A stretch of DNA of 64,000 nt, taken from the NCBI RefSeq assembly GCF_000153165.2, contig NC_014472.1, positions 369,501 to 433,500 on the forward strand, given 5' to 3'. Source of the DNA: Maribacter sp. HTCC2170 (GTDB lineage Bacteria; Bacteroidota; Bacteroidia; Flavobacteriales; Flavobacteriaceae). Positions 158 to 22,545 of the stretch are shown one piece after another. Under the pieces are notes generated by a model. That model did not search any database. It saw only the letters and a list, made by a program, of their open reading frames with translations, and was not told the origin of the DNA. The position numbers were made by a program, and so were the translations under genes. The first letter of the stretch is position 1. Every line of letters begins with the position of its first letter.

Positions 158-200
158 TAAAACTAAGTTCAAATACCTTCGATAAAAATGATATATATCA
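158..200 (-). promoter_or_regulatory. FNR-like dyad plus -7 box, leftward promoter
   Basis: TGATATATATCA at 189-200 has its centre 33 bp from the centre of TAGTTTTA (minus strand, 158-165; consensus TAnnTTTG with the last base changed). The spacing equals that at the other promoters of this set. It reads toward the gene cut by the left edge. Confidence 0.6.
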
Positions 201-245
201 GTAAATCAATGATCGACCTATTCAAAATCGTAAATAATTGTTAAC

Positions 246-288
246 TGACCTACATCATTTGAAAAGCATAATCACTACTCTATTTTAG
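246..288 (+). promoter_or_regulatory. FNR-like dyad plus -7 box, hsp20 promoter
   Basis: TGACCTACATCA at 246-257 is centred 33 bp upstream of TATTTTAG at 281-288, a one-mismatch TAnnTTTG box. The predicted transcription start is near 291, about 32 nt before the hsp20 ATG at 323. Confidence 0.6.
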
Positions 289-322
289 CTCTCAAATAAT
301 TGTTTAATCTAAAATCAATATC

Positions 323-790
323 ATGTCATTAGTAAAATTTAGAAAAAGAAGACCTTTTGGTAGTCTGGTAACCTCTGATTTTTTTGATATGGAGGATTTC
401 TTTGACAACCGATTTTGGAACCAAGGACTGGTCAATGACAGTTTTTGGAATGGAAGAAAAGGGGAACCGGCCCTAAACATAAAAGAGAACGAAGCTAATT
501 TTGAAATTGAATTGGCCGCTCCAGGTTTTGCAAAAAAAGATTTTGAAATCACGATTGACGATGGGTACTTGAATGTTTCTGCGAAGAAATCTACATCTGA
601 AGAAGAAAAAGAAGATGATTTTACTCGTAGGGAGTTTAGCTACAAGTCATTTGAAAGATCACTGCAATTGCCTGAAAATGTGAAAGAAGAAGAAATTAAA
701 GCTAAATACAAAGATGGCATTCTTAGTTTTAAGTTAGAAAAAATGGAAGAGGCCAAAAAGGCTAAACCAAAAGTAGTTGAGATTGCTTGA
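323..790 (+). CDS. Small heat shock protein, Hsp20/alpha-crystallin family
   Basis: This 155-aa protein is an ATP-independent holdase chaperone of the cytoplasm. An alpha-crystallin domain spans about residues 45-145, with the hallmark segments PALNIKENEANFEIELAAPG, a FTRREFSYKSFERSLQLP stretch and the final A-x-x-x-GIL-like motif (KYKDGILSFKL). The N-terminal arm is rich in Phe/Trp/Asp, as in other bacteroidotal Hsp20s. It stands alone and diverges from the gene at the left edge. The upstream dyad and -7 box place it with the stress promoters of this window instead of a sigma-32-type control. Family assignment is secure; the client range is unknown. Confidence 0.95.
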   Translation: MSLVKFRKRRPFGSLVTSDFFDMEDFFDNRFWNQGLVNDSFWNGRKGEPALNIKENEANFEIELAAPGFAKKDFEITIDDGYLNVSAKKSTSEEEKEDDFTRREFSYKSFERSLQLPENVKEEEIKAKYKDGILSFKLEKMEEAKKAKPKVVEIA

Positions 791-897
791 ATCTCATTTG
801 TTTATGAATGCCTTCTTATCTGATCTTAAAGCGTCCATGTATTGTAGGGGTTAGATTTGGGGGCATTCCCCTTTTGGTAAAATATTGCTAGAACAGA

Positions 898-1674
898 TTA
901 GGAATCACCCAAAAGAACTGACACCATATCTTCTGTCAAAGCCTCATTCGCCGCTTTATACCCTAAATCAAAAACAGCATCAATGTCCTTCACAGAGAAA
1001 GTACCATATTTCTTCAAATCTTTTGGACTTATTACCAAATTACAATCCTCGAATTTTTCAATAGATTCATGAGCCGTTTTGATTTTGTAGGCCCTATCCA
1101 AAATGCTAAAAGAATATTTAAGATCATTGATCCTAAGCACCTCAAATGGGTTTACATAAACTCCAACTATAGTATCGCAGGATGTTTTAATTAAATCTAC
1201 AGGAAAGTTATTGAGCGTACCTCCATCTATATAATGTTCACCACCTATCTCAACAGGAGTGAAAACCCCTGGAAAGGCAGCGGATGCCAAAATTGGCCGA
1301 ATCAATTCTCCCGCATCAAAAACCTTTAAAGTACCGGTTAGCAAGTTAGTGGTTGTAATGGCCAGCGGCATCTGTAAAGAGCTGAAATTGTCGTCTACCA
1401 GATAAGATTTAAAACTGTCATATAATTTTTCGGTATCTATGAAGCCCGGTTTATTGCGGGCAAACTTATTTAACTTGAAAATCTGTACCGACTTGAAAAA
1501 ATCCAATATTTCTTCCCACGTATTCCCATTGGCGTATAATGCCCCTACAATGGCACCAGCACTGGCACCGGCAATATGGTTTGGGAAAATACCATGCTCT
1601 TCCAAAGCTTTGATGGCTCCAATATGAGCCACACCGCGAACACCGCCACCAGAAAGGACCAGGCCTATATTCAT
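898..1674 (-). CDS. Patatin-like phospholipase
   Basis: At 258 aa this is a single-domain patatin (RssA-like) serine acyl hydrolase. It has the glycine-rich oxyanion loop GGGVRG (residues 9-14), the nucleophile elbow GASAG with Ser38, and the catalytic-dyad Asp150 in DGG. There is no signal peptide, so a cytoplasmic or membrane-peripheral lipase is expected; the substrate is unknown. It lies 103 bp downstream of the small DUF6327 gene and may be the last gene of the YtxH operon, which reads the same way. The ATG at 1674 leaves the complete beta strand before the GGG loop. Confidence 0.9.
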   Translation of the reverse strand: MNIGLVLSGGGVRGVAHIGAIKALEEHGIFPNHIAGASAGAIVGALYANGNTWEEILDFFKSVQIFKLNKFARNKPGFIDTEKLYDSFKSYLVDDNFSSLQMPLAITTTNLLTGTLKVFDAGELIRPILASAAFPGVFTPVEIGGEHYIDGGTLNNFPVDLIKTSCDTIVGVYVNPFEVLRINDLKYSFSILDRAYKIKTAHESIEKFEDCNLVISPKDLKKYGTFSVKDIDAVFDLGYKAANEALTEDMVSVLLGDS

Positions 1675-1777
1675 ACTTGAAATTTAATATCAAAACTATG
1701 AATATTCCACATTCAGTCTAAAAAAAATATGGGAAGGTTTAAATTTTGTATAGTCGGGAATCAAAACATGGCGCAGA

Positions 1778-2005
1778 CTAACCTGCCAATTGTTTTGCAC
1801 TACGCATTTTTTTTAATTGCCTGAGCACGAGGGTCAAAAGGCTTTTTTGAAGAATGCCCTTATACCCGCCCAGTAAATGTGAAGGAGTTAAATCTGATTT
1901 ACATCTATGTAGATTCAACTTGAAGCTTTCCAGATTTATTTCTCGGTGAAGGCTTAAGATTTTTAATTGCTTATCTATTTCGGAAAATGAGTTATAAGTT
2001 TTCAT
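1778..2005 (-). CDS. DUF6327-like small protein
   Basis: A 75-aa basic protein, beginning MKTYNSFSEIDKQLKILSLH and containing a LTPSHLLGG segment, that matches my recollection of the flavobacterial DUF6327 family, which accompanies YtxH and holin-like genes. Its C-terminal third is amphipathic and basic, and no clear membrane span is present. It starts 2 bp after the stop of the holin-like gene, so it is co-transcribed. The function is unknown; family identity is from memory and moderately sure. Confidence 0.75.
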   Translation of the reverse strand: MKTYNSFSEIDKQLKILSLHREINLESFKLNLHRCKSDLTPSHLLGGYKGILQKSLLTLVLRQLKKMRSAKQLAG

Positions 2006-2007
2006 AA

Positions 2008-2352
2008 TTAATCAAAATAATATTTTGAGAATTTCTTCAACAAAGGTGTGTCCATTTTTTTACGGAAAATATAGCATAGTATGGCAACTACAACATAAAA
2101 TAGTCCCACTATCAGAAATCCGTGGTAGAACTCATTCATCGCATTACCTATGGCATACGCCGCGGTCAATGACAATAAGAATAAAGCCAAAAAGGCAATT
2201 GCCCCTATGACCAATACATGAGTTAAGGAAGTAATTCCTCTCATTGAGGTTTTGAATACTTTCAGTTTGTAGTATTCTTCACTATTCTCAAGATAGGATC
2301 TAATATCGACATCGGCCTCTATTAGATCCTTCTTTAATTCATCAAAAGCCAT
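2008..2352 (-). CDS. Phage-holin-family (holin-X-like) small membrane protein
   Basis: The 114-aa product has a charged N-terminal helix, then two hydrophobic spans (about residues 42-68 and 78-97) and a basic C-terminus. This is the layout of the chromosomal 'phage holin family' membrane proteins found next to YtxH genes. There are no other phage genes nearby, so a lysis role is not implied; a membrane or envelope stress role is inferred from context only. It lies 6 bp downstream of the YtxH gene and 2 bp upstream of the DUF6327 gene in one operon. Confidence 0.75.
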   Translation of the reverse strand: MAFDELKKDLIEADVDIRSYLENSEEYYKLKVFKTSMRGITSLTHVLVIGAIAFLALFLLSLTAAYAIGNAMNEFYHGFLIVGLFYVVVAILCYIFRKKMDTPLLKKFSKYYFD

Positions 2353-2358
2353 AAGAAC

Positions 2359-2688: not shown

Positions 2689-2724
2689 GATTCTTGAATT
2701 TTATGGTTCATATTAAATTATACA

Positions 2725-2772
2725 CCAAAGTAATTCAATGAGTCATCACTTGAAATGATTTAAATCATTTCA
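2725..2772 (-). promoter_or_regulatory. 22-bp palindrome (FNR-like) plus -7 box, ytxH promoter
   Basis: The core TGATTTAAATCA at 2756-2767 lies in a perfect palindrome covering 2751-2772. Its centre is 33 bp from that of TACTTTGG (minus strand, 2725-2732), a TAnnTTTG box with one changed base. Transcription is predicted to begin near 2721 and run into the YtxH gene. Confidence 0.65.
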
Positions 2773-2825
2773 AAAAAAAGAGGGTTTCAAAACCATTCAA
2801 TGGGTATTCTTATAACTGTAGTAAA

Positions 2826-4013
2826 TCAGTTTTCAAGCAAATGAAATGCTTGCTTAGCTATTTCCAACTCTTCATTGGTTGGAATAACCAAAACCTTTAC
2901 AATTGAATCTGAAGTATTAATCTCTCGGAGATGGGCTGATTTCCTGGAATTAAACAAATCATCTATTTCTATTTCTAAAAATTGCATTTCATTGCAGACC
3001 ATTTTACGTATCAGTTCAGAGTTTTCCCCAATCCCAGCCGTAAAAATTAGGGCATCAAGACCATTCATAGCGGCCGCATAGGCTCCAATATATTTTTTAA
3101 TTCGATACGCATTCATTTCCAAAGCCAACTTACAAGCGTGATTACCTCTCTCCGCTTCAGACTCAATATCCCTTAAATCACTATAACCGGTCAAACCCAA
3201 CATACCGCTTTCTTTGTTCAACATATTATTCACCTCATCTAAAGAATAACCCAGTTCATTCACCAAATAAAAGACAATAGAATGGTCTATATCTCCACTT
3301 CTAGAACCCATGATCAGTCCGTTCGAAGGTGCGAACCCAAGACTATGATCTACACTTTTTCCATTCTTTACTGCACTTATACTGCAACCATTACCAAGAT
3401 GGATTGTAATTAGCTTTGCATCCTCTCTACCTAAATAATCCGCGGCTCTTTCCGAAACATACTTATGACTAGTACCATGAAAACCATAGAGTTGGATTCC
3501 GTTTTCTTCATAGAACTTATTGGGAATGGCATATTTGCGCACCTTAGTAGGTATTGATTGATGAAATGCCGTATCAAAAACTGCAATCTGTTTTGAATTC
3601 GAGAATATTTGTTCCGCAATTTCAATTCCCAATAGATTATGTGGATTATGTAAAGGTGCTAGGCTGAAATTTTCCTTTATTATTCTTTTCACCTCTTTAT
3701 TCACTAATGTTGTCTCGGAAAACGCATTCCCACCATGAACAACCCTATGGCCCACAGCTTCTATTTCCTCGGTACTTTTTAGAATCCCGTTTTCCACATC
3801 AAGTAAAACATTGGAAATCTTAATCAGACCTTCCTTGTGGTCATTTATCGGCAATTTTTTTTTATGCTTTTTCCCAGAAAGATTAAAAACCAAAACCGAA
3901 TCACGAGATCCAATACGTTCGACCAAGCCACCACAGATCACTTTTTCCTCTGGCATTTCAATTAGTTGGAACTTAATTGAAGAACTGCCCGAATTTAATA
4001 TCAATACCTTCAT
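2826..4013 (-). CDS. ackA: Acetate kinase
   Basis: Acetate kinase (395 aa, normal length) makes ATP and acetate from acetyl phosphate in the cytoplasm. Family signatures are present: NSGSSSIKFQ near the N-terminus, VGHRVVHGG, FDTAFHQS, the nucleotide-binding HLGNGCS and the C-terminal AGIGEN. The ATG is 5 bp after the pta stop, so pta and ackA form one transcript. Linkage to two UspA genes suggests that substrate-level ATP formation or acetyl-phosphate control is tied to stress or oxygen limitation; that link is inference. Confidence 0.97.
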   Translation of the reverse strand: MKVLILNSGSSSIKFQLIEMPEEKVICGGLVERIGSRDSVLVFNLSGKKHKKKLPINDHKEGLIKISNVLLDVENGILKSTEEIEAVGHRVVHGGNAFSETTLVNKEVKRIIKENFSLAPLHNPHNLLGIEIAEQIFSNSKQIAVFDTAFHQSIPTKVRKYAIPNKFYEENGIQLYGFHGTSHKYVSERAADYLGREDAKLITIHLGNGCSISAVKNGKSVDHSLGFAPSNGLIMGSRSGDIDHSIVFYLVNELGYSLDEVNNMLNKESGMLGLTGYSDLRDIESEAERGNHACKLALEMNAYRIKKYIGAYAAAMNGLDALIFTAGIGENSELIRKMVCNEMQFLEIEIDDLFNSRKSAHLREINTSDSIVKVLVIPTNEELEIAKQAFHLLEN

Positions 4014-4018
4014 ATAAG

Positions 4019-6115
4019 TTATTCTAAATCTTGTGCCTGAATTGCAGTAATAATCACAGCGTTAAAGATATCGTCCACATTACAACCTCGGCTTAGGTCA
4101 TTCACAGGTTTGTTAAGCCCTTGTAAAATGGGACCGATTGCTATCGTTCCCGTCTCCCTTTGAACGGCTTTGTAGGTATTGTTCCCTGTGTTAAGATCTG
4201 GAAAAATAAAAACTGATGCCTCACCGGCCACTTGTGACCCTGGCATTTTGGTTTTGCCCACATTTATATCAACAGCTGCGTCATATTGTATTGGCCCCTC
4301 AACCTTTAGATCAGGTCGTTTCTCTTTTACCAATTTGGTTGCATTACGTACTCTCTCAACATCTTCGCCCACTCCTGAACTACCTGAGGAGTATGATAAC
4401 ATTGCGATTTTTGGGTCAATACCAAATGCTTGACTTGTTTCAGCTGAAGATATGGCAATCTCTGATAATTGTTCTGCATCTGGGTTCGGGTTTATGGCAC
4501 AATCACCATAGAGTGTAACCCTATCTTCAAGACACATAAAAAAGACTGAAGAAACCACAGAAACATCTGGTCGTGTTTTTATAAAATGTAATGCAGGAAG
4601 AATGGTGTGTTTTGTAGTATGTATTGCACCCGATACCATGCCATCTGCATAACCTTTATGAACCATCATGGTAGCAAAATATGAAACATCTTCCATAAGA
4701 TCACGGGCCATTGCCAAATTCACATTTTTATGCTTTCTCAATTCATATAGGGTTTCGGAGAATTCATCAAAATATTTAGATTCAGTTGGGTTCTCTATCT
4801 CAATACTATTAAGATCAAGATCTAAATCCATCAGTGATATTTTGTCTGCTATTTGTATTGGGTCACCTAGTAAGGTGATTTCAACGGCATTGGCATCTAG
4901 CAATTGCTTTGTTGCCTTTAATACACGTTCATCCAATCCTTCTGCAAGTACAATTCTTTTTTTATCTGCTTTTGCCCGCTTCAGTAAATTATATTGAAAC
5001 ATTCTAGGTGTAATTCCTTTAGACTTCGATGTTATCAATCTCTTGGCCAGCACTTCCTCAGGTATATATTTTGAAAAGTCCTGAATTGAGGTCATTATTT
5101 TATGAGTGTTCTCCGCATATATCTTCGGTCTGATCGCCCCAATTCGATTTGTTATTGAAAAAGTTCCTTCTTCTACAGAAATTATGGGCACAACGTCTGA
5201 AAGCCCCTCAATAAGCTTGGCAATAGGTTCTTCAGGAATTATTCCCCCGGTTAAAATCATCCCAGATACAGTAGGGTAATTAGCAGATAAATTTGCTTGT
5301 AAGGCTCCAAGAATAATATCGGCCCTATCACCAGGAGTAATTACAAGTCCATCTTTCTTTAAATGGGTGAGGTAATTGCGTAATTGCATGGCCCCTACGC
5401 CAAAATGCCCTGCTTGATTATTTAAATATTTTTCACCAAAGAGAACTTTACCTTCAAGAACATCAACAATTTCTTTTATGGTAGGGTTGCCCAAAACAGG
5501 ATTCATTGGTATTGACCCTACCAATACCTCTTCAGGTATAACTTTTTGCAAACTCTCATTTACCAGCTCTAAATTTTTCTCTTGAACCTTATTGGCAACA
5601 ACCATAAGAACCTCAACACCATGATCCTTAAATGAATCATAGGCCAAGTAGACATTATTTACCAACTCATCCAATGTTTTACCAACACCACTTGTCAATA
5701 TGAGTGTTGGAATACCCAGGTTCTTTGCCATAAGTACATTGATATCCCATTCAATGATCGCTCCTTCTCCAGAAAAGTCCGTGCCTTCAACCAGCACAAA
5801 ATCAAACTGATCTTCTATGCTCTTATATTTTTCTATAATCTTATCAAGAACCTCATCTTCTTTATTCTGATTATTCATCTGAATAACCTCGCTGCGTGTA
5901 AATGCGAACGCGTCTTCATAGGCAATTGGCAAATTAAAATAGGAAATAATGGTTTTTATGTGGTTATCTTTTGTACCATTCGTGTAGTCATCGATAATAG
6001 GTCTAAAATAGCCGACTTTAGCTGCTTTTCCCAATAACATTTGCATTAGACCCAGAGAAATTATTGATTTGCCACTGTTAGGTTCTGTTGTGGCAATATA
6101 AATGGCTTTGCTCAT
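4019..6115 (-). CDS. pta: Phosphate acetyltransferase, long form
   Basis: Pta converts acetyl-CoA and phosphate to acetyl phosphate. This is the long form (698 aa): an N-terminal BioD-like P-loop domain (ATTEPNSGKS, about residues 9-18), a central DRTGG domain (about 210-320) and the C-terminal PTA_PTB catalytic domain (about 375-695, ending near GPILQGLNKPVNDLSRG). The frame opens at a TTG at 6121, but the ATG at 6115 begins directly before the first beta strand and is preferred. It is followed after 5 bp by ackA and preceded by two uspA genes across a 150-bp spacer with its own candidate promoter. Confidence 0.96.
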   Translation of the reverse strand: MSKAIYIATTEPNSGKSIISLGLMQMLLGKAAKVGYFRPIIDDYTNGTKDNHIKTIISYFNLPIAYEDAFAFTRSEVIQMNNQNKEDEVLDKIIEKYKSIEDQFDFVLVEGTDFSGEGAIIEWDINVLMAKNLGIPTLILTSGVGKTLDELVNNVYLAYDSFKDHGVEVLMVVANKVQEKNLELVNESLQKVIPEEVLVGSIPMNPVLGNPTIKEIVDVLEGKVLFGEKYLNNQAGHFGVGAMQLRNYLTHLKKDGLVITPGDRADIILGALQANLSANYPTVSGMILTGGIIPEEPIAKLIEGLSDVVPIISVEEGTFSITNRIGAIRPKIYAENTHKIMTSIQDFSKYIPEEVLAKRLITSKSKGITPRMFQYNLLKRAKADKKRIVLAEGLDERVLKATKQLLDANAVEITLLGDPIQIADKISLMDLDLDLNSIEIENPTESKYFDEFSETLYELRKHKNVNLAMARDLMEDVSYFATMMVHKGYADGMVSGAIHTTKHTILPALHFIKTRPDVSVVSSVFFMCLEDRVTLYGDCAINPNPDAEQLSEIAISSAETSQAFGIDPKIAMLSYSSGSSGVGEDVERVRNATKLVKEKRPDLKVEGPIQYDAAVDINVGKTKMPGSQVAGEASVFIFPDLNTGNNTYKAVQRETGTIAIGPILQGLNKPVNDLSRGCNVDDIFNAVIITAIQAQDLE

Positions 6116-6136
6116 TAGCAATCAGTGTTTAATATG

Positions 6137-6265: not shown

Positions 6266-7129
6266 TCAATTTGATATCAATGATTGAATTCCTGGTAAAA
6301 TCAAGATTGGTATTTTGGTATGAAAAGCCATTTTTCTAATGACCGATTCTCTTGTTAATTTCTCCAAAAAAGTATGCGGATAGTTTATCAATACAATTAA
6401 ATCAATATCCTCTTTTTTAGAAAAATCATTGACTGCATCAGCTACATTGTTCCACATTTCAACTCGGTGGAATTGATGGTCCAGGCCGTTTAATCGTTTT
6501 GACAATAATTCTTTGTTCTTCTTTTGCATTTCACTCAAAACATACTCCTCAGCAATCTGCAAAACATTTATTTTAGCATTCCAAATAGAAGCCATTTCAA
6601 GTATACTTTGTAAATCTTCTTCACCGATTACGTGGGTGAAATTAGTTGGAAAGACCACTGCATTCAACCTCTTAAAATCATGTTCATCAGGAACCGCCAA
6701 AATTGGGCAGAACCTTATTTTCTTGATCACCCTTACCGTATTACTTCCCATGAATACCTCTTTAGCCCCAGACGCACCTTTAGTGCCCATAACAATAAGA
6801 TCTATTTCTCTTTCAAGGAGCAGCTGGTTGATTGCCTGATCTACATTGTTCGAAACCGAGACCAATTCAAATTCATGGTTTGTTCGTTTATGATTTTGAG
6901 AAAGATATTGTATTGACTTATCTAATTGAATATTTGAGTTCTCAGATAAGGAATCATAAATAACCCCTAACCTTTCCCTGCTTTTTTTTCCCAATAAATT
7001 TGTCATTTTTGGTTCGTAGGTGTTCAATAATATAAAATTGCAATCTACGTTCTCAAATATTTTTAAGGCCGTGAAAATCGCGTTCCACGCGTTATCGGAA
7101 AAATCCGTAGGTAAAATAATATTTTTCAT
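6266..7129 (-). CDS. Universal stress protein, tandem UspA domains (second copy)
   Basis: This 287-aa protein contains two Usp alpha/beta domains (about residues 1-145 and 150-285). The first keeps the ATP-binding signature G-x2-G-x9-G-S/T (GTKGASGAKEVFMGSN) and the opening DFSDNAWNA, so it is an ATP-binding type Usp; the second domain has lost this motif. Usp proteins act in the cytoplasm in survival under starvation, redox or oxygen stress. The gene starts 8 bp after the other uspA, so both share the upstream promoter; they are clear paralogues (shared IPTDFSENAW-like start and GASGAKE). Confidence 0.93.
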   Translation of the reverse strand: MKNIILPTDFSDNAWNAIFTALKIFENVDCNFILLNTYEPKMTNLLGKKSRERLGVIYDSLSENSNIQLDKSIQYLSQNHKRTNHEFELVSVSNNVDQAINQLLLEREIDLIVMGTKGASGAKEVFMGSNTVRVIKKIRFCPILAVPDEHDFKRLNAVVFPTNFTHVIGEEDLQSILEMASIWNAKINVLQIAEEYVLSEMQKKNKELLSKRLNGLDHQFHRVEMWNNVADAVNDFSKKEDIDLIVLINYPHTFLEKLTRESVIRKMAFHTKIPILILPGIQSLISN

Positions 7130-7137
7130 TTCGGCTT

Positions 7138-7992
7138 TTATTTAGAAGAATTGGAATTATCAGGTACCACCAAAAATGGAACTTGTATGTGAAAACCAAT
7201 TTGGTCGATGTTCTGTTTCGTCAATATCCGCTCAAAAAACGAATGGTTTCTGTTCATCATTACCAAAATATCAAAGTCATGTTCTTCTACATATTCAATG
7301 ACGGCTTCTGGCATATAAGAACCCCTTTCTTCTTTAAATTCAAACTTAATCTGTGCAAGACAAAGTGCTAAGAAATCTTTATTCTCCTTCTGAACTTTAC
7401 TTAGCTCATACTCCTCCTTTATATGTAGTACAGTAATCAAGGCATCAAATATTTTCGCTATTTCAATGGCAGTGTACAGTTCCTTCCTATGGTATTTTGA
7501 CTTATAATCCGCAGCAAAAAGTATTTTTTCTATTCGCTTGTATACAAAACCGGCAGGAATCGCCAAAATTGGAACAGTAGCTTTTCGAATAACATGAACA
7601 GTGTTGGTTCCAAGAAATATTTCTTTTGCCCCAGAAGCTCCCTGCGTTCCCATGATAATTAAATCAACACTCTTGCTATGACTCAATTCGGTTATTTCAT
7701 CGGTCAAAACATTGAATGCGGAGACGGTTTCATAAATGTGTTTAGGGTTATTGAAATTAGCCTTAACCTTCTGTAAGGTCATTTCCAGCCCAGACAAAGA
7801 TGCGTCAACACCTTTATCAGCAATAGCACTGAATTCTGGACCTCCAAGCACATAATCCATACGATAAAAAGCAGGGGTATAGGTATGTAAAAAGTAGAAT
7901 GTACAGCGTTCATTTTTTAAAAATTGCAGTGCAAACGAAATGGTATTCCAAGCATTTTCTGAAAAATCGGTGGGAATGAGGATTGTTTTCAT
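7138..7992 (-). CDS. Universal stress protein, tandem UspA domains (first copy)
   Basis: A 284-aa tandem Usp protein beginning MKTILIPTDFSENAWNTISF. The N-terminal domain carries the ATP-binding signature (GTQGASGAKEIFLGTN) and the C-terminal domain (about residues 150-280) is degenerate. It is the promoter-proximal gene of uspA-uspA, with pta-ackA downstream in the same direction. The spacer to the divergent deoC carries two dyads; the left one (8046-8057) is correctly placed for this gene. The coupling to acetate kinase genes recalls anaerobic Usp loci in other bacteria, by analogy only. Confidence 0.94.
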   Translation of the reverse strand: MKTILIPTDFSENAWNTISFALQFLKNERCTFYFLHTYTPAFYRMDYVLGGPEFSAIADKGVDASLSGLEMTLQKVKANFNNPKHIYETVSAFNVLTDEITELSHSKSVDLIIMGTQGASGAKEIFLGTNTVHVIRKATVPILAIPAGFVYKRIEKILFAADYKSKYHRKELYTAIEIAKIFDALITVLHIKEEYELSKVQKENKDFLALCLAQIKFEFKEERGSYMPEAVIEYVEEHDFDILVMMNRNHSFFERILTKQNIDQIGFHIQVPFLVVPDNSNSSK

Positions 7993-8014: not shown

Positions 8015-8057
8015 TAAAATTATGGTCTTTCTAAAAAAAGAACCATGATTTAAATCA
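8015..8057 (-). promoter_or_regulatory. FNR-like dyad plus -7 box, uspA promoter
   Basis: TGATTTAAATCA at 8046-8057 is centred 33 bp from TAATTTTA (minus strand, 8015-8022). The core dyad is identical to that of the ytxH promoter. Start of transcription is predicted near 8011, about 20 nt before the uspA ATG at 7992. Confidence 0.65.
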
Positions 8058-8080: not shown

Positions 8081-8123
8081 TGACTATTATCATGAAAAAT
8101 CTAAAGGTAGAATCGTATTTTTG
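8081..8123 (+). promoter_or_regulatory. FNR-like dyad plus -7 box, deoC promoter
   Basis: TGACTATTATCA at 8081-8092 is centred 33 bp upstream of TATTTTTG (8116-8123), a perfect TAnnTTTG box. Transcription should start near 8127, giving a leader of about 43 nt before the deoC ATG at 8170. Confidence 0.65.
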
Positions 8124-8169: not shown

Positions 8170-8814
8170 ATGCACATCCAAGATTATATTGACCATACCA
8201 TACTTAAGCCCACAGCAACAATTGCCGATATTGAAAAACTATGTAACGAAGCTATTGCACATAAGTTCTTCGCTGTTTGTGTAAACGGCTGTTATGTTAA
8301 ATCTGCCAAAGAATTATTATTGGACAGTTCGGTAAACCTAGCAGCGGTAATAGGCTTTCCTTTAGGGGCCATGAGCACGGAAGCCAAGATTTTTGAATCC
8401 AAGAATTGCGTTGCCAATGGCGCTGATGAAATTGACATGGTTATCAATGTTGGATGGTTAAAATCCGGTAAAACAGATTTAGTTGAACAAGAGATTTCCA
8501 ACATAAAAAAAGCAATTGGAAAAAAGGTTTTGAAAGTAATCATAGAAACTTGCTATTTAACCCATGAAGAAAAAATAAAAGCATGCGAACTTGCTGTTGC
8601 AGCGGGTGCAGACTTTGTAAAGACCTCGACTGGTTTTGGTTCTGGGGGTGCAACCTTGGAAGATGTTAAACTTATGAAAGATGTAGTTGGGCACATGGCA
8701 AAAATAAAAGCTTCCGGTGGTATTAGAGATAGAGCCACAGCTCTTAAATACCTTGCCCTTGGGGTTTCACGAATAGGAACATCCGCAGGGATTACCATCT
8801 CATCAACCGAATAA
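8170..8814 (+). CDS. deoC: Deoxyribose-phosphate aldolase
   Basis: DeoC (214 aa) splits 2-deoxyribose-5-phosphate into acetaldehyde and glyceraldehyde-3-phosphate. The Schiff-base lysine is K151 in VKTSTGFG; the partner lysine K180 precedes ASGG and D89 lies in ADEIDMVIN, so the active site is complete. The start [10 protein letters not shown] is typical of the family. It is followed after 11 bp by deoD, forming a nucleoside salvage operon. It diverges from uspA across a spacer with paired dyads, so nucleoside breakdown appears to be controlled together with the stress genes. Confidence 0.96.
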
Positions 8815-8825: not shown

Positions 8826-9524
8826 ATGAGCGTACATATTGAAGCCAAAAAAGGAGAAATTGCAGAAACCGTATTAATGCCAGGAGATCCCCTACGTGCC
8901 AAGTGGATTGCAGAAACTTTTTTGAAAGATCCATTTTGTTATAACAAAGTACGTGGAATGTTGGGATACACTGGAACTTATAAAGGCAAAAAAATATCGG
9001 TTCAAGGCAGCGGAATGGGAATCCCATCCGCAATGATCTATTATCATGAATTGATAAATAATTATGGGGTTAAAAACCTAATCCGAGTAGGATCGGCCGG
9101 TTCTTTTCAAAAAAATATTAAAGTACGGGATATAGTTCTCGCCATGGCTGCCTCAACCACTTCAGGAATAAATAACTCACGTTTTATAAATTCTGACTAT
9201 TCCCCAACTGCAAATTTTGATTTATTGTTGAACGCATCCTTATATGCAAAGAAAAATGGAATAAAGATTAAAGCAGGAAATGTTCTTTCTGCGGACGAGT
9301 TTTACGAAGATGACCCTGACGCATACAAACTATGGGCCAAGTATGGTGTTCTTTGTGTTGAAATGGAGGCATCTGGCCTATACACGATTGCCGCTAAATT
9401 CAACGTAAGGGCCTTGGCCATACTCACAATTTCTGATTCATTGGTCACCGGGGAAAAAACGTCATCAAAAGAAAGGGAGACCTCGTTTAATGAAATGGTC
9501 GAGATTGCTTTGAACATTACCTAA
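8826..9524 (+). CDS. deoD: Purine-nucleoside phosphorylase, DeoD type
   Basis: DeoD (232 aa) phosphorolyses purine (deoxy)nucleosides to base and (deoxy)ribose-1-phosphate. Diagnostic pieces of the hexameric bacterial type are the start [23 protein letters not shown] (described in part), the VGSAGS phosphate loop region, VEMEASGLY for ribose binding and ILTISDSL with the catalytic Asp. It sits 11 bp after deoC. A phosphopentomutase (deoB), needed to join the two steps, is not in this window. Confidence 0.95.
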
Positions 9525-9571: not shown

Positions 9572-9614
9572 TGACCTAGGTCATTTCTTATTAAAGTTAT
9601 TGTCGCCAACTTTA
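9572..9614 (+). promoter_or_regulatory. FNR-like dyad upstream of the DUF2267 gene
   Basis: TGACCTAGGTCA at 9572-9583 is a perfect 12-bp palindrome (14 bp with flanking A/T). At the standard 33-bp distance lies CAACTTTA (9607-9614), which fits the -7 box only at four of six fixed positions, so this is the weakest core promoter of the set although the dyad itself is excellent. Confidence 0.5.
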
Positions 9615-9637: not shown

Positions 9638-10090
9638 ATGGCACTTAATTTTAATCAATACGCAACGGAAGGAAATACATTTATAAAAAATTATACCAAG
9701 GAAATGAATCTTGGTGAAGACAAAGACAAAGCGGGTAGAATTCTATCAGCCATTCTTCATGCACTTCGCGATATTATACCTACAGAAGAATCATTACAGC
9801 TTATCGCTCAATTCCCAATGTTCTTAAAGGCCGTCTACGTAAATGGCTGGACCATAAAAAGAGATAGGCCAAGAATAAAACAAATGGCAGAGTTCATTGA
9901 TTTGGTAAGAAAACATGACGGACCATCTGCAATAAACGACTTTGAATATAGCGATGATGTTGCGGAGCAGTACATAGACACAACCTTTATTCTATTAAGA
10001 AAATATATTTCCTTGGGAGAACTGGAAGATATTAGAGATGGTTTACCCAAAGATTTAAAAAGCATGATTTACTCTAATATCATGTTTTAA
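9638..10090 (+). CDS. DUF2267 domain-containing protein
   Basis: The 150-aa protein matches DUF2267: an all-helical acidic protein with NFNQYATEGNTFIKNY near the start and a central LHALRDIIPTEESLQLIAQFP segment. DUF2267 proteins often neighbour stress genes, but their function is unknown. It is probably cytoplasmic. The ATG at 9638 follows AAAAGAGGATATT, a weak Shine-Dalgarno-like run that is uncommon in this group. The WG gene follows after 32 bp in the same direction, so the two are likely co-transcribed from the palindromic promoter. Confidence 0.88.
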   Translation: MALNFNQYATEGNTFIKNYTKEMNLGEDKDKAGRILSAILHALRDIIPTEESLQLIAQFPMFLKAVYVNGWTIKRDRPRIKQMAEFIDLVRKHDGPSAINDFEYSDDVAEQYIDTTFILLRKYISLGELEDIRDGLPKDLKSMIYSNIMF

Positions 10091-15107: not shown

Positions 15108-16280
15108 TTAATTCTCCAATGAATCTGACAATAGTAATAATGTTAGCAAGGCTGCTCTTTCTGGTAACTGGTCTAAAAATATAAACTCGTGTAGTGCATG
15201 TGCGCCATCTCCCGTTGTGCCTAGACCATCCAGAGTAGCGGTATATGTACTCGTAGTATTACCATCTGAACCTCCACCGGCAGTAGCTTGTTGCAGTTCT
15301 AAACCCAATAATAAGGCTTTGGTTTTAGCGAGTTGCCATAGTTTCTGGTTTCGAGTTGTACGCTCCATAGGCGGTCGGCCAATTCCTCCCTCAATCTTAA
15401 TTACCACATCAGGAATGCTCGGTTCTAACCCATAAATCTGTTTCGTTATTAATTCTCCGTCTTCTTTATTTTGTACTCTAACATCGATCACAGCCTTACT
15501 CTCAGGTGCCACCACATTCGGAGAAATACCTCCTTGAATGGTTCCAACATTTACTGTTATCCCCTTATCAAAATCGTTCATGGCAAACAATTTTTGTACC
15601 TGGTGTGAAAGTTCTACAATTGCATTTATCCCCTTTCCAGGATCTAAACCAGCATGGGCGGCCTTTCCATTAACCGTTATTGTGAATCGTCCTAATCCTT
15701 TACGGGCGGTTTTCAATTTTCCTTCAAGACCTAAAGGAGGTTCCATAACAAATGTACGTTCGGAAATAATTGATAGTCTCTTGATAATATGCCATGATTC
15801 CCTGCTGCCAATTTCCTCATCAGAATTGATTAGGACTACGGGAGTGAGATGGGATTGCAAAGACATCTCATGAATTGCCTTTAGCGAAAATAATATTTGG
15901 GTCAATCCTGCCTTCATGTCATAAACTCCAGGACCGGTCATCTTACCGTTATTTTCTGAAATAGGCATCTTTAGCAATGTATTCTTTGTCCATACAGTAT
16001 CACAATGACCTAATAATAATTGTAAGTTTTTTTTTCTATCCCTATTTTGCGGTCTGGCATATAAAAATCCGCCAGTATTTTTTCCAGGAACAAAAAGCGT
16101 AAAATATCCAAGAGAGTTCAGTTTACTTTCCAAGAATTCTAGTATTGGTTTTTGTGAATTTGGGTCATCAGATGGGGACTCATATTGGACTAATTTTTCA
16201 AGGAAACCGATCATTTTATCTTTATTTGCCTTGAAATATGCTAAAATCTCCGCTGCTATATTTATGGTCATCGCAATCAT
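15108..16280 (-). CDS. M20 family metallopeptidase, glutamate carboxypeptidase-like
   Basis: The 390-aa enzyme shows the M20A metal-binding set: GHCDTVW (first His/Asp), GPGVYDMKAG (bridging Asp), DEEIGS (catalytic Glu and ligand) and a late HALHE. A dimerisation domain sits at about residues 190-305. It resembles carboxypeptidase G2-like exo-enzymes and N-acyl amino acid deacylases; no signal peptide, so cytoplasmic. The ATG at 16280 overlaps the TGA of the preceding gene by ATGA, which supports this start and translational coupling. It is followed after 12 bp by the DUF1611-like gene. Confidence 0.9.
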   Translation of the reverse strand: MIAMTINIAAEILAYFKANKDKMIGFLEKLVQYESPSDDPNSQKPILEFLESKLNSLGYFTLFVPGKNTGGFLYARPQNRDRKKNLQLLLGHCDTVWTKNTLLKMPISENNGKMTGPGVYDMKAGLTQILFSLKAIHEMSLQSHLTPVVLINSDEEIGSRESWHIIKRLSIISERTFVMEPPLGLEGKLKTARKGLGRFTITVNGKAAHAGLDPGKGINAIVELSHQVQKLFAMNDFDKGITVNVGTIQGGISPNVVAPESKAVIDVRVQNKEDGELITKQIYGLEPSIPDVVIKIEGGIGRPPMERTTRNQKLWQLAKTKALLLGLELQQATAGGGSDGNTTSTYTATLDGLGTTGDGAHALHEFIFLDQLPERAALLTLLLLSDSLEN

Positions 16281-16888
16281 CTTTTAAAGTCCTTAGGAAA
16301 TGGAAAACTGTAGGTATCAGAAATTTTTGCAAAACGACCTGAAGCTATATAAGCCAGCAATGGATTTTCATGCAGCTGTTCCTGTTCGTCTTTTTCGAAT
16401 ACCCTAAGATAATTCTTATGCACATGTGCTGCTTTTATCGTGCCAGAAATGATACAATAATCATCAAAACCGTCGATTATTTTGAATAGTTCACATTCAA
16501 AGAACAAATAAGCATCTTTAATCATTGGCACATCCATTGTGGTTGCCTTGACAATTGGCAATACCTCAATAATTGCATGCGATTTAGAAATCTGTTCAGA
16601 ACGGGGGGATGAGGTTAAAGAGGTGGTTACTATCTGATCTGGTCTCGGAAAACTGACCGAAAATTCCTTGTTTGTCTTCACATTTTGATATGTACCATGC
16701 CTAGGTGTACAAACGAAACCAAAATAATTGCCAAACCCTAAAGGTGTGGCCATGTGTTTTGGCGCAAGATCATACCCCTCTTTTTCCTTAGTGCCAATGA
16801 CAACTAAAGGAGCGACAGTAAAAAAGTGTTCCCAGATAGGCAACCTAACATCCAACGAGATTATATTATCTTTTTGAAGAACATCCAT
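16277..16888 (-). CDS. Flavin reductase-like domain protein
   Basis: A 203-aa protein of the flavin reductase-like (DIM6/NTAB) split-barrel fold: PLVVIGTKEKEGYDLAPKH, the FGFVCTPRHGTYQNVKTN flavin-phosphate segment, and F-S-V-S-F-P. Such proteins bind FMN and serve as reductases or monooxygenase partners. It is the first gene of the operon with M20 (4-bp overlap), DUF1611-like and a membrane protein. A hairpin or operator-like dyad (16954-16972) lies upstream. The specific reaction is unknown. Confidence 0.85.
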   Translation of the reverse strand: MDVLQKDNIISLDVRLPIWEHFFTVAPLVVIGTKEKEGYDLAPKHMATPLGFGNYFGFVCTPRHGTYQNVKTNKEFSVSFPRPDQIVTTSLTSSPRSEQISKSHAIIEVLPIVKATTMDVPMIKDAYLFFECELFKIIDGFDDYCIISGTIKAAHVHKNYLRVFEKDEQEQLHENPLLAYIASGRFAKISDTYSFPFPKDFKR

Positions 16889-16953
16889 GATGTATTACAA
16901 TTGTATTCCACTATCAATAAAAATACAATTCAATACAAAAGGAGGTAATGATT

Positions 16954-16972
16954 TTGGTCAGCTGGTGACCAA
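16954..16972. promoter_or_regulatory. Inverted repeat upstream of the flavin reductase-like operon
   Basis: TTGGTCA and TGACCAA form a perfect 7-bp inverted repeat around GCTGG. It lies between the end of the DUF302 gene and the flavin-reductase-like start (16888). No T-run follows on either strand, so an operator is as likely as a terminator. Confidence 0.4.
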
Positions 16973-17014
16973 CGATAATGGAACCAAACAACTAATTATG
17001 ATTAATTGTGTGCC

Positions 17015-17404
17015 CTACAAATTATCAACTGCTTTTTTTAACTTATTTCTAACCTCATTAGCTATTTCACCAAGGTCTTTATTCTTTATACCCATCATAG
17101 ATACAATAGGGTCTACGGCAGCAACTTCAATACTGCCATTTTCAGTTTCGCGGACAATTACATTACAGGGCAACATCGTTCCAATTTTGTTTTCGGCCAG
17201 TAAGGCTTTATGTGCAAAGGGTGGATTACAAGCACCCAGGATTTTATAATTAGGGAAGTTGATATCCAATTTATTTTTCAATGTCGTTTTAATATCTATT
17301 TCGGTGAGTATACCAAAACCCTCTTCCTTTAAGGCTAGCGTTGTTTTGTCAACTACTTCGTCGAAAGACAAATTAGTAAGTGTTTTGTTGAAATAATAAT
17401 CCAT
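17015..17404 (-). CDS. DUF302 domain-containing protein
   Basis: A 129-aa DUF302 protein: YYFNKTL at the start, then the domain core LKEEGFGILTEIDIKTTLKN, YKILGACNPPFAHKALLAE and IGTMLPCNVIVRE, covering nearly the whole chain. DUF302 proteins occur near stress, metal and sulfur genes; two Cys (in GACNPP and LPCNV) are conserved family positions. Cytoplasmic. Upstream lies 600 bp without a gene but with two near-twin hairpins; one sits about 40-68 nt before this start, possibly within the leader RNA. Confidence 0.88.
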   Translation of the reverse strand: MDYYFNKTLTNLSFDEVVDKTTLALKEEGFGILTEIDIKTTLKNKLDINFPNYKILGACNPPFAHKALLAENKIGTMLPCNVIVRETENGSIEVAAVDPIVSMMGIKNKDLGEIANEVRNKLKKAVDNL

Positions 17405-17443
17405 TTTATTTTATTAAGGTAATCTGTGATACGACCCAAAGCA

Positions 17444-17472
17444 GAAACAGGCACGCTACGCGTGCCCGTTTC
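17444..17472 (-). repeat. 29-nt hairpin, copy 1
   Basis: As minus-strand RNA it folds into a 13-bp stem with loop GUA; all 13 pairs form, one being G-U. The arms begin GAAACGGGCACGC and end GCGTGCCTGTTTC. Read on the plus strand the G-U becomes an A-C mismatch. There is no T-run after it, so it does not look like a terminator. Confidence 0.6.
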
Positions 17473-17630
17473 CTATTAGGAAATCATATTCATCAAAACA
17501 ATCAAACAATTCTTTAAATCACGTTATTACTAAAACAACTTAACCAATTGATTTTTTTGCAAATGACTACATTGACTTCCCAACTATGATCTATACGGTC
17601 TTGCGACAATAAAAATCAATGTCATTAATT

Positions 17631-17855
17631 TTTTAAAAGAAACCGGAACACCTCGTGTCCCGGTTTCCAGAAGATATAAATTCTGCCTAATAAACACTTG
17701 TTGGCAGTTTATTCTCCGAACTTGTTGCCAAGCCATTACAAAAAAACGCCCAGTGCAATGGTATCTTTTATATCTTCATATACAAACCCTTATTACTCCC
17801 CATGAATAACAAGTATGTTTTTCGAATGTCAAATGAACTTTTACTATAACAATTA
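17631..17855 (-). ncRNA. Candidate regulated small RNA
   Basis: A promoter with an FNR-like dyad and perfect TATATTTG box predicts transcription from about 17854 leftwards. There is no gene downstream until DUF302 at 17404. The predicted transcript contains the TTGGCA/TGCCAA stem (17701-17731) and ends at the 13-bp hairpin with a T-rich tail (17639-17667), about 220 nt in all. The alternative is a very long leader of the DUF302 mRNA. Confidence 0.45.
17639..17667 (-). terminator. 29-nt hairpin, copy 2, with T-rich tail (minus strand)
   Basis: As minus-strand RNA, GAAACCGGGACAC pairs over 13 bp with GTGTTCCGGTTTC around loop GAG, with one G-U pair. TTTTAAAAAATT follows immediately. The design (29 nt, 13-bp stem, 3-nt loop, GAAAC/GTTTC ends) is the same as copy 1. 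It is a plausible terminator of the candidate small RNA. Confidence 0.55.
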
Positions 17856-17857
17856 GC

Positions 17858-17900
17858 CAAATATATAATCTGATTTTCTCAAATGAAATGATATAGATCA
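17858..17900 (-). promoter_or_regulatory. FNR-like dyad plus perfect -7 box, leftward
   Basis: TGATATAGATCA at 17889-17900 is centred exactly 33 bp from TATATTTG (minus strand, 17858-17865), a perfect TAnnTTTG box identical to that of mlaE. It faces the gene-free stretch. Confidence 0.65.
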
Positions 17901-18006
17901 GTTCAGGTAATTTTTTTCCATTAGAGCAATTATACATTCCAGACAGGTATAAAAATAAATTAATATAGGTCCTAAATCATTGAATACAAGAAAGTTAAAA
18001 TACTCA

Positions 18007-18987: not shown

Positions 18988-18991
18988 AATT

Positions 18992-19774: not shown

Positions 19775-19775
19775 A

Positions 19776-20558
19776 TCACAAATCATAAAAAATATCAGAT
19801 ACAAAAACTGCTATAAAATCCACAAAAAACAACAGCAGTGATGCCAATACCACGGCGGTATTAGCGGCAACCCCTACACCTGCTGTTCCTTTTTTGCTAT
19901 AATATCCCTTATAACAACCAACTAAACCAATGGTGAATCCGAAGAAAAAGGATTTTATGGTAGCGGGTATTAAATCTCCAAATTCAAGGGCATCAAAAAC
20001 GGTATTGAAATAAAGCTGAAATGAAACATTCCCTTTTAAATTTTCAACCAGGGCCGATCCATATAGCGCAACTAAATCACCAAAAATCACCAATAAAGGG
20101 AGCATAAGAGTTGTTGCCATTATTCGTGTAACTACCAAATATTTAAAAGGATTGGTGCCAGAGACTTCCATAGCATCTATTTGTTCAGTTACCCTCATAG
20201 AACCCAGTTCTGCCCCTATCCCAGAAGCTATTCTCCCGGCACAAATCAATGCAGTTATTACCGGTCCAATTTCCCGCACAATAGAGATACCCACCATATT
20301 GGGCATCCATGAAACAGCCCCAAACTCAATAAGTGTGGGTCTCGACTGCAAAGTGAGTACTAAACCAATAATAAAGCCAGTTACCCCAACTAAAACTAGT
20401 GATCTATTACCCATATTATAGCACTGGCGTAATAGCTCTTTGAACTCATAAGGGGGTTTCAATGCTTCTTTAAAAAAACGCATAGCAAAATTGGAAAGTT
20501 CCCCTATTTCAACAAAGAACTGCCTTAACTTTTGGACGGATTGAATTGTGTATGCCAT
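19776..20558 (-). CDS. MlaE-type ABC lipid transporter permease
   Basis: The permease (260 aa from ATG 20558) has five or six membrane spans and the MlaE core: PALITALICAGRI-like VITALICAGRIASGIGAELGSM, then the coupling-helix EQIDAMEV and a GCYKGYYSKKG loop. It works with the MlaF ATPase and MlaD protein to move phospholipids at the inner membrane. Frames open at 20585, but the -7 box at 20587-20594 puts transcription start near 20584, so the in-frame ATG at 20558 is favoured (20570 is possible). It is under the common FNR-like dyad promoter. Confidence 0.92.
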   Translation of the reverse strand: MAYTIQSVQKLRQFFVEIGELSNFAMRFFKEALKPPYEFKELLRQCYNMGNRSLVLVGVTGFIIGLVLTLQSRPTLIEFGAVSWMPNMVGISIVREIGPVITALICAGRIASGIGAELGSMRVTEQIDAMEVSGTNPFKYLVVTRIMATTLMLPLLVIFGDLVALYGSALVENLKGNVSFQLYFNTVFDALEFGDLIPATIKSFFFGFTIGLVGCYKGYYSKKGTAGVGVAANTAVVLASLLLFFVDFIAVFVSDIFYDL

Positions 20559-20586
20559 CTTCAAATACATTTGAAAAGGAATCAAT

Positions 20587-20629
20587 CAAATATAGTTTCA
20601 ACATAGTTTTTACTAAATGATTTGGATCA
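20587..20629 (-). promoter_or_regulatory. FNR-like dyad plus perfect -7 box, mlaE promoter
   Basis: TGATTTGGATCA at 20618-20629 is centred 33 bp from TATATTTG (minus strand, 20587-20594). The predicted start of transcription (about 20584) decides against the upstream-most start codon of mlaE at 20585. Confidence 0.65.
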
Positions 20630-20657
20630 CCTTCCATGATGTCATTCAATGTTAATA

Positions 20658-20700
20658 TGACCTTGCTCATTTCGTACGTTCTAATGATCAAATAAATTAG
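20658..20700 (+). promoter_or_regulatory. FNR-like dyad (one arm weak) plus -7 box, rightward
   Basis: TGACCTTGCTCA at 20658-20669 (right arm CTCA instead of RTCA) is centred 33 bp upstream of TAAATTAG (20693-20700). Transcription would begin near 20703, 16 nt before the ATG at 20719. It is divergent from the mlaE promoter. Confidence 0.45.
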
Positions 20701-20718
20701 TGCAAAGATCAAAACATC

Positions 20719-20955
20719 ATGAAAACAACTTTTGAAGTACAACAGGCCATTTCCCCTTTGGATGAAAAAGTGATTTTAGAACGATTTCAATTTGGAATGA
20801 ATATTTGGAATGCCAGCGTGAATCCAGAGAATCGACTTATATCTTTTGAGTATTTAAACAGAAATGTACTTGAGACGGTCCGCAGGGAACTTGGTGAAAT
20901 GGGATATCATGTTATCAACAACACCCATGAGTTAGATAAAAACCGTAAGCCTTGA
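20719..20955 (+). CDS. HMA-fold-like small protein without CxxC
   Basis: A 78-aa protein whose pattern of strands and helices (beta-alpha-beta-beta-alpha-beta) follows the heavy-metal-associated domain: KTTFEVQ, helix DEKVILERF, WNASVNPENRLISFEYL, helix VLETVRRELGEMG, YHVIN. The metal-binding CxxC is absent and the protein has no Cys at all, so metal transfer is not expected. It diverges from mlaE and is followed after 21 bp by an L,D-transpeptidase gene. Function unknown; the fold match is by eye. Confidence 0.72.
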   Translation: MKTTFEVQQAISPLDEKVILERFQFGMNIWNASVNPENRLISFEYLNRNVLETVRRELGEMGYHVINNTHELDKNRKP

Positions 20956-20976
20956 AATAATCAAATTATTGACCAA

Positions 20977-21918: not shown

Positions 21919-22000
21919 ACTTAAGTTTCCACTAAAATAAAAACAAACAATAAGTTTTATCTTCAATTACACCTTCCTATATTTGCAGACCAAAATTCAT

Positions 22001-22084
22001 GCGCACGTGGCGGAATTGGTAGACGCGCTAGCTTGAGGGGCTAGTGACCATTAGGTCGTGGAAGTTCGAGTCTTCTCGTGCGCA
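22001..22084 (+). tRNA. tRNA-Leu (GAG)
   Basis: The acceptor arms GCGCACG (22001-22007) and CGTGCGC (22077-22083) pair fully, with discriminator A. The anticodon stem CTAGC/GCTAG encloses TTGAGGG, giving anticodon GAG (reads CUC/CUU). A long class II variable arm (TGACC-ATTA-GGTCG) and TTCGAGT T-loop confirm leucine identity. CCA is not encoded. Confidence 0.95.
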
Positions 22085-22191
22085 CTAAGCACCCGTAAAT
22101 CACAAATGTTTATGGGGTACTAATTTTCCAAAAAAAGAAAAGTGTTTCAAAGCAAATTTCTAAGTGGTTTTGACCAATTGTCATCTAAGTT

Positions 22192-22219
22192 GCTTGTTGA
22201 TTAAGGAAGTTCAACAAGC
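22192..22219 (-). terminator. Possible terminator hairpin after the 83-aa gene
   Basis: GCTTGTTGA and TCAACAAGC form a 9-bp stem with a loop of about 10 nt just past the minus-strand stop at 22222. No clear T-run follows, so the call is tentative. Confidence 0.35.
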
Positions 22220-22221
22220 TA

Positions 22222-22473
22222 TCATAATGATTCAAAACACTTGACATCAAAATCATTGATGTACTTTTCCAAATCACTCCCATCACAAAAAGGCTTGCTC
22301 GATATTGGATTATTAGATAAAGGGTCAGAAACGACCTCGACAAAAAAGCTATGCAGTGAATAGAGGGAATAATTGCACATGGGGGTCTGGATAGTGATCA
22401 AGAATCTCCCATACCCAAAAACCTCGAACCATTGTTCGGGAATCGAAAGTGTTTTGTAATCCTCTATCACCAT
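22222..22473 (-). CDS. Conserved-looking 83-aa protein of unknown function
   Basis: The protein starts MVIEDYKTLSIPEQWFEVFG and has a mixed soluble composition with aromatic residues and a YINDFD segment near the end; there is no signal peptide or membrane span. I do not recognise a domain. It is the only reasonable frame between the tRNA and the TlpA-like gene. A dyad and -7 box of the common type lie directly upstream (22503-22545), giving a leader of about 26 nt, which supports the gene and places it in the stress promoter set. Confidence 0.7.
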   Translation of the reverse strand: MVIEDYKTLSIPEQWFEVFGYGRFLITIQTPMCNYSLYSLHSFFVEVVSDPLSNNPISSKPFCDGSDLEKYINDFDVKCFESL

Positions 22474-22502
22474 AACAGCAAATAAAAATCAGCATCTTAG
22501 TA

Positions 22503-22545
22503 TAAAATTACACACACAATTCTGCGGTAAATATGACAAGTATCA
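22503..22545 (-). promoter_or_regulatory. FNR-like dyad plus -7 box, promoter of the 83-aa gene
   Basis: TGACAAGTATCA at 22534-22545 is centred 33 bp from TAATTTTA (minus strand, 22503-22510), the same -7 sequence as at uspA. The predicted start is near 22499. Confidence 0.6.

Follow-up and report, generated by a model that had tools for sequence, protein, structure and literature searches.

What reads the inverted repeats that stand before a row of stress genes in Maribacter sp. HTCC2170? The window studied here, 64,000 nucleotides of contig NC_014472.1 (positions 369,501 to 433,500), had been described in a sequence-only reading as carrying ten dyads of the form TGAYN4RTCA, each centred 33 bp from a TAnnTTTG-like -7 box, and a single Crp/Fnr-family regulator had been proposed for them. 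The ten-site observation was confirmed, and the pattern is stronger than had been claimed. All ten dyads start at the bases given for them (Table 1), each with a box centred exactly 33 bp away (a gap of 23 bp); the box qualities (three perfect, six with one mismatch and one with two) and the weak arm at 20658, whose dyad TGACCTTGCTCA has one mismatch to TGAYN4RTCA, were also as described. The window contains 13 exact dyads, and 10 of these have a box with at most one mismatch at gap 23 when both orientations are taken, namely eight of the listed pairs and two unlisted ones, at 16949 (-) and 32313 (+). No other gap between 5 and 59 gives such a box to more than two window dyads. The combination dyad-N23-TAnnTTTG (at most one mismatch) was matched 10 times in the window, compared with a mean of 0.26 and a largest count of 2 in 100 dinucleotide shuffles. 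The explanation that we favour, and regard as probable, is that the dyads are sites of class II Crp/Fnr dimers in a conserved low-oxygen regulon read by two proteins, the FNR-like protein (a) and protein (b), in which a receiver is fused to a Crp-type DNA-binding part.

The element was then sought beyond the window. In the genome of 3,868,304 bases, 72 matches with at most one mismatch were found against 9 for the reversed pattern, and 16 perfect pairs against 0. Perfect dyad-box pairs over gaps of 8 to 38 numbered 33 genome-wide, 16 of them at gap 23, and 62 of the 72 dyads lie outside called open reading frames (ORFs) of at least 80 amino acids (aa). The pairing is thus far above chance, and the original observation withstood the scan. 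A perfect element was present in 104 of 247 Bacteroidota genomes; in the same family, all 26 genomes, that of Maribacter included, hold perfect matches (240 versus 5 reversed). The sites, which had been presented as those of a stress island, are therefore not special to it but belong to a regulon that is genome-wide and family-wide.

The same was observed around the genes for (a). The best 80 loci of its orthologues, among a larger number, come from Maribacter, Muricauda/Allomuricauda, Zobellia, Eudoraea and others, and contain 294 matches at up to one mismatch versus 0 reversed. Boxes were counted 293 times at gap 23 and 1-24 times at each other gap from 5 to 44, so that in both the genome and the 80 loci TAnnTTTG, the -7 element of the Bacteroidota primary sigma promoter, stands out at gap 23 only. 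A site faces the divergent gene upstream of (a) in 75 of the 80 loci, and in 60 the same dyad also faces (a); this gene is ccoI in the Maribacter genome, the only one in which it was named. Further sites lie 2-4 kb upstream of (a), at the next operon position (ccoS in Maribacter), in 74 loci, and downstream of (a) in 77. Compositional chance in AT-rich intergenic DNA was considered as a source of the pattern, the components of which are indeed short and AT-rich, but the gap specificity, the reversed-pattern counts and the shuffles all contradict it, and its probability is practically nil.

The logo of the 62 intergenic sites reads (A/C)TGAY, four mostly A/T bases and RTCAT, with A in 55%, C in 35% and T in 2% at position -1 and T in 82% at position +12. 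Because the outer T is so rare before TGA, the equation of the half-site with the TTGAT of FNR was not borne out. A search for the FNR-like TTGAN5TCAA with a variable gap to the box gave 5 perfect matches genome-wide and none in the window, a scarcity that fits the (A/C)TGAY logo. Class II Crp/Fnr activators sit over part of the -35 region, with their dyad centred near -41.5. In the available part of PMC6847099, the -7 element of Flavobacterium johnsoniae is placed at -12 to -5 (T-12...G-5), often 4-5 nt before the start. By this numbering the box centre falls at -8.5 and the dyad centre at -41.5, so that all ten listed sites have class II geometry relative to the -7 element, in support of the position near -41 suggested earlier. 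From there, Crp/Fnr-type dimers would activate promoters of the Bacteroidota primary sigma factor. Five single dyads of the genome (C1:1101389, 1110275, 2054028, 2345305 and 3596717) have a gap-23 box on both sides, and one bound dimer could therefore activate two divergent promoters.

Candidate regulators were sought with HTH_Crp_2. Six proteins of the genome matched, among them a GntR-like one that stayed below the cut-off. The recognition-helix Glu of CRP and FNR contacts the TGA of the half-site, and two of the five Crp/Fnr-like proteins, (a) and (b), carry an ExxxR recognition helix. Protein (a) (1083769-1084470, 233 aa) is FNR-like, has the helix E-S-A-I-R and is encoded beside the cbb3 genes. 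Protein (b) (3494094-3495155) unites Response_reg, cNMP_binding and HTH_Crp_2 in one polypeptide, and its gene is in line with that of a PAS histidine kinase, beside genes for universal stress proteins (Usp). The E-x-x-[IS]-R helix and the receiver Asp were present in 20 of 20 (b) homologues. The best PDB matches of the kinase PAS are FixL (8.3e-14), with the FixL heme His and a downstream Arg aligned; in FixL this His binds the heme. By alignment, therefore, the kinase resembles a FixL-type PAS kinase with the heme-binding His; it may hold heme, and would be predicted to phosphorylate (b). With E<=1e-3 as the limit, 14 of 20 (b) loci yielded a similar PAS, which in some is clearly FixL-like. 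In genomes G000, G053 and G230, a site and a Usp gene come right after the (b) gene; this order, noted in three genomes (loci L301, L310 and L069), suggests a short route from (b) to a stress array of its own.

The genes behind the sites point to low oxygen as the signal. As expected for FNR, sites precede low-oxygen respiration genes: ccoI (E1-E2 ATPase) and ccoS-ccoNO for the cbb3 oxidase, the nap operon (a NapD-like protein, and NapA over its NCBIfam cut-off), the nos operon (Sec-dependent NosZ) with a divergent Rrf2 gene, hemN and PFOR. Further targets are a second POR-type enzyme, PPDK, a RseC-RnfC operon, a molybdopterin oxidoreductase, sulfide/sulfur-type enzymes, PPK2, an S30AE protein, an EF-G-like GTPase and several Usp genes. 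About 8 of the 40 first genes scanned, or slightly more, had no Pfam match, besides the regulator and the kinase, and the theme is for this reason drawn from the named targets. The theme of oxygen limitation proposed earlier is supported, as these include classical FNR/FixK targets (cbb3 oxidase, NapA and NosZ operons, HemN and PFOR). The term dormancy-like fits the window genes (Hsp20, YtxH, Usp-Usp-Pta-AckA, DeoC-phosphorylase, DUF2267, MlaE-ATPase-MlaD and flavin reductase) and the S30AE hibernation-type factor elsewhere in the genome, but is a label only. Nitric oxide is a possible co-signal, by analogy with known FNR proteins such as FnrP as far as the available part of the source describes them.

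The inner bases of the sites differed with the regulator content of the genome. Genomes with only (a), that is, without (b) at E<=1e-40, and genomes with only (b) both keep the element. When the half-sites of perfect sites were counted, the first inner base (position 4) was A in 117 of 178 (66%) in 16 (a)-only genomes versus 18 of 100 (18%) in 14 (b)-only genomes (Fisher 6e-15; 0 of 20000 genome-label permutations). Genomes with both proteins and four unclear ones (G002, G088, G226 and G234) were left out of these classes, G012 and G095 were counted apart, and G122 was searched and is site-less (14 of 15 had a site). Whole sites sorted as A, B or mixed gave too coarse a picture, with 36 of 72 falling into the mixed type, and the counts were therefore made on half-sites. 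At the two cco-position sites of the 80 (a) loci, 138 of 150 and 127 of 148 half-sites have A. The cco, hemN, nos, Hsp20 and Usp targets are kept in (b)-only genomes; in G053, the ccoS site is TGATTAAGATCA, the hemN site TGATTTATATCA and the nos operon site TGATTTTAATCA. Protein (a) would thus prefer TGAYA-N2-TRTCA and drive mainly respiration genes, and (b) would prefer TGAY(T/C)-N2-(A/G)RTCA and be the likelier activator of the window stress island (Usp, Hsp20, YtxH, Pta-AckA, DUF2267 and Mla).

These data bear on whether one protein could suffice. Control of all sites by (a) alone, those of the window included, with base differences that only tune affinity, would suit its location amid sites and beside cbb3, and the 11 family genomes without (b), at the threshold given above, still have 2-17 perfect elements. 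However, G053, G130 and G230 keep the element without (a) at E<=1e-15 (receiver-Crp-length frames aside), with sites at cco, hemN, nos, Hsp20 and Usp genes among others, and within the family position 4 is A in 7 of 32 half-sites in these three (b)-only genomes versus 106 of 150 in the (a)-only ones. We consider control by (a) alone unlikely. The opposite arrangement, in which (b) alone is the class II activator while (a) acts elsewhere or competes for the same sites, agrees with the site and Usp gene directly after (b) and with the regulon kept in (b)-only genomes; the eleven family genomes just mentioned and the dyad between (a) and its divergent gene in most loci count against it, and it appears very unlikely. 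Three more Crp-like regulators (C1:2859955, 2875360 and 3609894), with another recognition helix, are encoded in the Maribacter genome near sulfur-type dyad-box genes. That one of them, or an unrecognised factor, reads the dyads could be argued from this proximity and from the site before 2875360, but their helices carry V where CRP and FNR have the TGA-contacting Glu (contacts known in general), and we hold this to be less probable still. Two ExxxR-helix proteins fit the data, and genomes with one regulator keep the element with different inner bases, which does not agree with the single regulator first proposed.

In the two-protein regulon that we prefer, the stress island looks like a (b)-type subset: in the Maribacter genome, which encodes both, A is found in 7 of 24 window half-sites versus 64 of 94 elsewhere (p 8e-4; 10 in-ORF sites and the second orientation of the 5 shared dyads left out), although the 24 were partly reader-picked and the count without the two weak sites is 7 of 20 (p 0.0098). 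Usp genes number 5-21 in the 15 family genomes with (b) versus 4-9 in the 11 without it (p 0.007, kinship uncorrected). Besides the partial selection of the window sites, several observations weigh against this reading. The Usp cluster next to the (b) gene has sites of both types (A in 9 of 14 half-sites), and the site downstream of (a), which precedes a Usp gene in Maribacter, is A-type in relatives (141 of 154); the assignment of stress genes to (b) is therefore a tendency only. The preference is weaker in the more distant genomes with (a) alone (A in 11 of 28), and at least three genomes of this class (G021, G198 and G202) encode another FNR-like protein as well. In Maribacter, the three further Crp-like proteins are themselves candidate readers. 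No PAS match was found in the locus DNA covered for 6 of 20 (b) loci, and one or both of the FixL residues are missing from part of the matches. With one mismatch allowed, matches outnumber reversed ones only modestly in several other genomes (for example G064, 22 vs 14; G084, 20 vs 8; G057, 30 vs 12). Finally, the AlphaFold2 (AF2) model of (a), made with 46 close orthologues, was poor (predicted local distance difference test 64.6, predicted template modelling score 0.43) and was not used as evidence; with it, Foldseek returned Crp/Fnr chains first, with TM (template modelling) scores below 0.5.

How (a) might sense oxygen was examined through its cysteines. Of the 30 best orthologues, 29 have C9, C12, C58 and C111 together and one has none of them. 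The cluster ligands of E. coli FNR are C20, C23, C29 and C122. When (a) was aligned to Aliivibrio fischeri FNR, C9, C12 and C111 matched the ligands C20, C23 and C122, ligand C29 fell on N18 of (a) and C58 fell on Ala, so that the four-Cys set of FNR is incomplete in (a) for want of a C29 equivalent. Among 65 homologues, 54 have C9, C12 and C111: 43 of these carry C58 only, with no third N-terminal Cys within 8 residues, 7 a third N-terminal Cys without C58, 3 both and 1 neither. The other 11 comprise 5 with another N-terminal Cys set and no C58, 2 with only C58 and C111, and 4 with none. In the tree, the 12 homologues that have a third N-terminal Cys but not C58 form one side of a fully supported branch, which indicates one split and not many independent swaps. 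The simplest reading of the alignment is that C58 replaces C29 as cluster ligand, and (a) is predicted to hold an oxygen-labile iron-sulfur (Fe-S) cluster via C9, C12, C58 and C111; from general jelly-roll topology, C58 and C111 presumably lie on adjacent strands. For comparison, the available part of PMC4771820 gives the ligand Cys of FnrP as 14, 17, 25 and 113.

Three side observations concern this lineage. Loci L224, L229-L232, L237 and L238 of relatives encode a second, canonical-looking FNR-like lineage with three N-terminal Cys and no C58, and some genomes hold both kinds. In family f2, the (a) homologues of L104, L206 and L208 have none of the four Cys. The genomes G012 and G095, also of family f2, show (b)-like inner bases (4 of 32 A), often with TAAA after the dyad.

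Taken as a whole, the more detailed scheme is a tentative one, to which we give somewhat less than an even chance. In it, Bacteroidota would govern their response to low oxygen by a rigid promoter grammar, with the dyad at -41.5 before TAnnTTTG, that two independent oxygen sensors share; one Fe-S ligand of (a) would have shifted out of the N-terminal loop onto a beta-strand (C58); FixL would signal to the receiver-Crp protein in a one-step relay; and one inner base pair would decide which protein owns a site. After loss of a sensor, the cco, hemN and nos promoters would have been rewritten at that base with their geometry kept.

Table 1. Dyad-box pairs of the 64-kb window with the genes that they serve (window coordinates).
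Dyad and box	Span	Strand	Box mismatches	Gene served and remarks
Dyad 189-200, box 158-165	158..200	-	1	232-aa ORF just outside (left of) the window, start ~40 bp from box
Dyad 246-257, box 281-288	246..288	+	1	Hsp20 gene 323-790 (Pfam HSP20 3.7e-25)
Dyad 2756-2767, box 2725-2732	2725..2767	-	1	YtxH gene 2359-2688 (Pfam) and ORFs behind
Dyad 8046-8057, box 8015-8022	8015..8057	-	1	Usp 7138-7992 first, then Usp 6266-7129, Pta 4019-6121, AckA 2826-4013 (Pfam); putatively one operon from gene spacing
Dyad 8081-8092, box 8116-8123	8081..8123	+	0	DeoC-like 8170-8814, phosphorylase 8826-9524 (Pfam)
Dyad TGACCTAGGTCA, box 9607-9614	9572..9614	+	2	DUF2267 gene 9638-10090 (Pfam)
Dyad 16949-16960, box 16918-16925	16918..16960	-	at most 1	Flavin-reductase-like gene 16277-16888 (Pfam), 30 bp away; newly found pair
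Dyad 17889-17900, box 17858-17865	17858..17900	-	0	Nearest co-directional ORF >=60 aa (129 aa, 17015-17404) 454 bp off
Dyad 20618-20629, box 20587-20594	20587..20629	-	0	MlaE 19776-20585 (true start probably further inside the frame), ABC ATPase, MlaD (Pfam)
Weak one-mismatch dyad, box 20693-20700	20658..20700	+	1	78-aa ORF 20719-20955, no Pfam match
Dyad 22534-22545, box 22503-22510	22503..22545	-	1	83-aa ORF 22222-22473, no Pfam match
One-mismatch match	32313..32355	+		CarboxypepD_reg-domain gene 32428-33825 (Pfam), 73 bp downstream; newly found, least certain site

The perfect pair at 17858-17900 faces about 450 bp (17405-17857) without any ORF above 50 aa, in which no Rfam family scored above its threshold; a transcript from this pair could possibly be a small RNA or a leader. 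A tRNA gene at 22001-22084, near the end of the stress island, marks a possible insertion point.

The earlier interpretation had the kind of control right, namely class II Crp/Fnr sites and low oxygen, but was mistaken about the half-site and, in all likelihood, about there being one regulator. Oxygen regulation seems to be little described in Bacteroidota, which are important marine and soil degraders and N2O reducers. Searches of an open-licence library, from which most subscription journals are absent, turned up no paper that deals, for Bacteroidota, with this promoter element or regulon, with a C58-type FNR or with a FixL/receiver-Crp pair. The results yield a promoter grammar that can serve for prediction in this phylum, whose promoters are unlike those of E. 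coli, and name two candidate regulators. They also make a displaced Fe-S ligand testable through one residue change, and the comparison of regulator content with the inner base offers a natural experiment in cis-regulatory turnover.

Among known systems, FNR, ANR and FnrP (E. coli, Pseudomonas and Paracoccus) are of the same Crp/Fnr family, A. fischeri FNR being among the closest PDB sequence relatives of (a). They share with it the C-x2-C motif, the strand Cys (C111 of (a), C122 of FNR), the E and R of the helix, the site geometry and targets such as cbb3, nap, nos and HemN. By contrast, the C29 position is N, S or T in most (a) orthologues, with a conserved C58 instead, (a) has Ile in place of the Ser of ExxSR, the sites show (A/C)TGAY and not TTGAT as their half-site, and the partner promoter is TAnnTTTG; the pair of ExxSR helix and TTGAT half-site typical of E. 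coli FNR is thus absent. The FixL-FixJ-FixK system of rhizobia is alike in that a FixL-type PAS kinase adjoins the regulator and that cbb3 and denitrification genes lie behind Crp/Fnr-type dyads. Instead of a separate FixJ (receiver-LuxR) and FixK, however, (b) is a fusion of the receiver and the Crp/Fnr DNA-binding parts, so that the FixJ-to-fixK transcription step is not needed. The mycobacterial DosR/DosS-DosT system controls a hypoxia dormancy regulon with heme kinase input and with Usp, Hsp20-like and metabolic genes. This is a likeness of theme, and homology is not claimed; DosR is of the NarL/LuxR type and has other sites. The cavities of FNR/CRP proteins are the subject of a review (PMC12937710). 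Lastly, the available part of PMC8510549 describes Crp/Fnr homologues of Flavobacteriales metagenome-assembled genomes as MalR-like and assigns them to carbon sensing, whereas the sites and targets of (a) and (b) suggest oxygen; the protein described there may be another paralogue.

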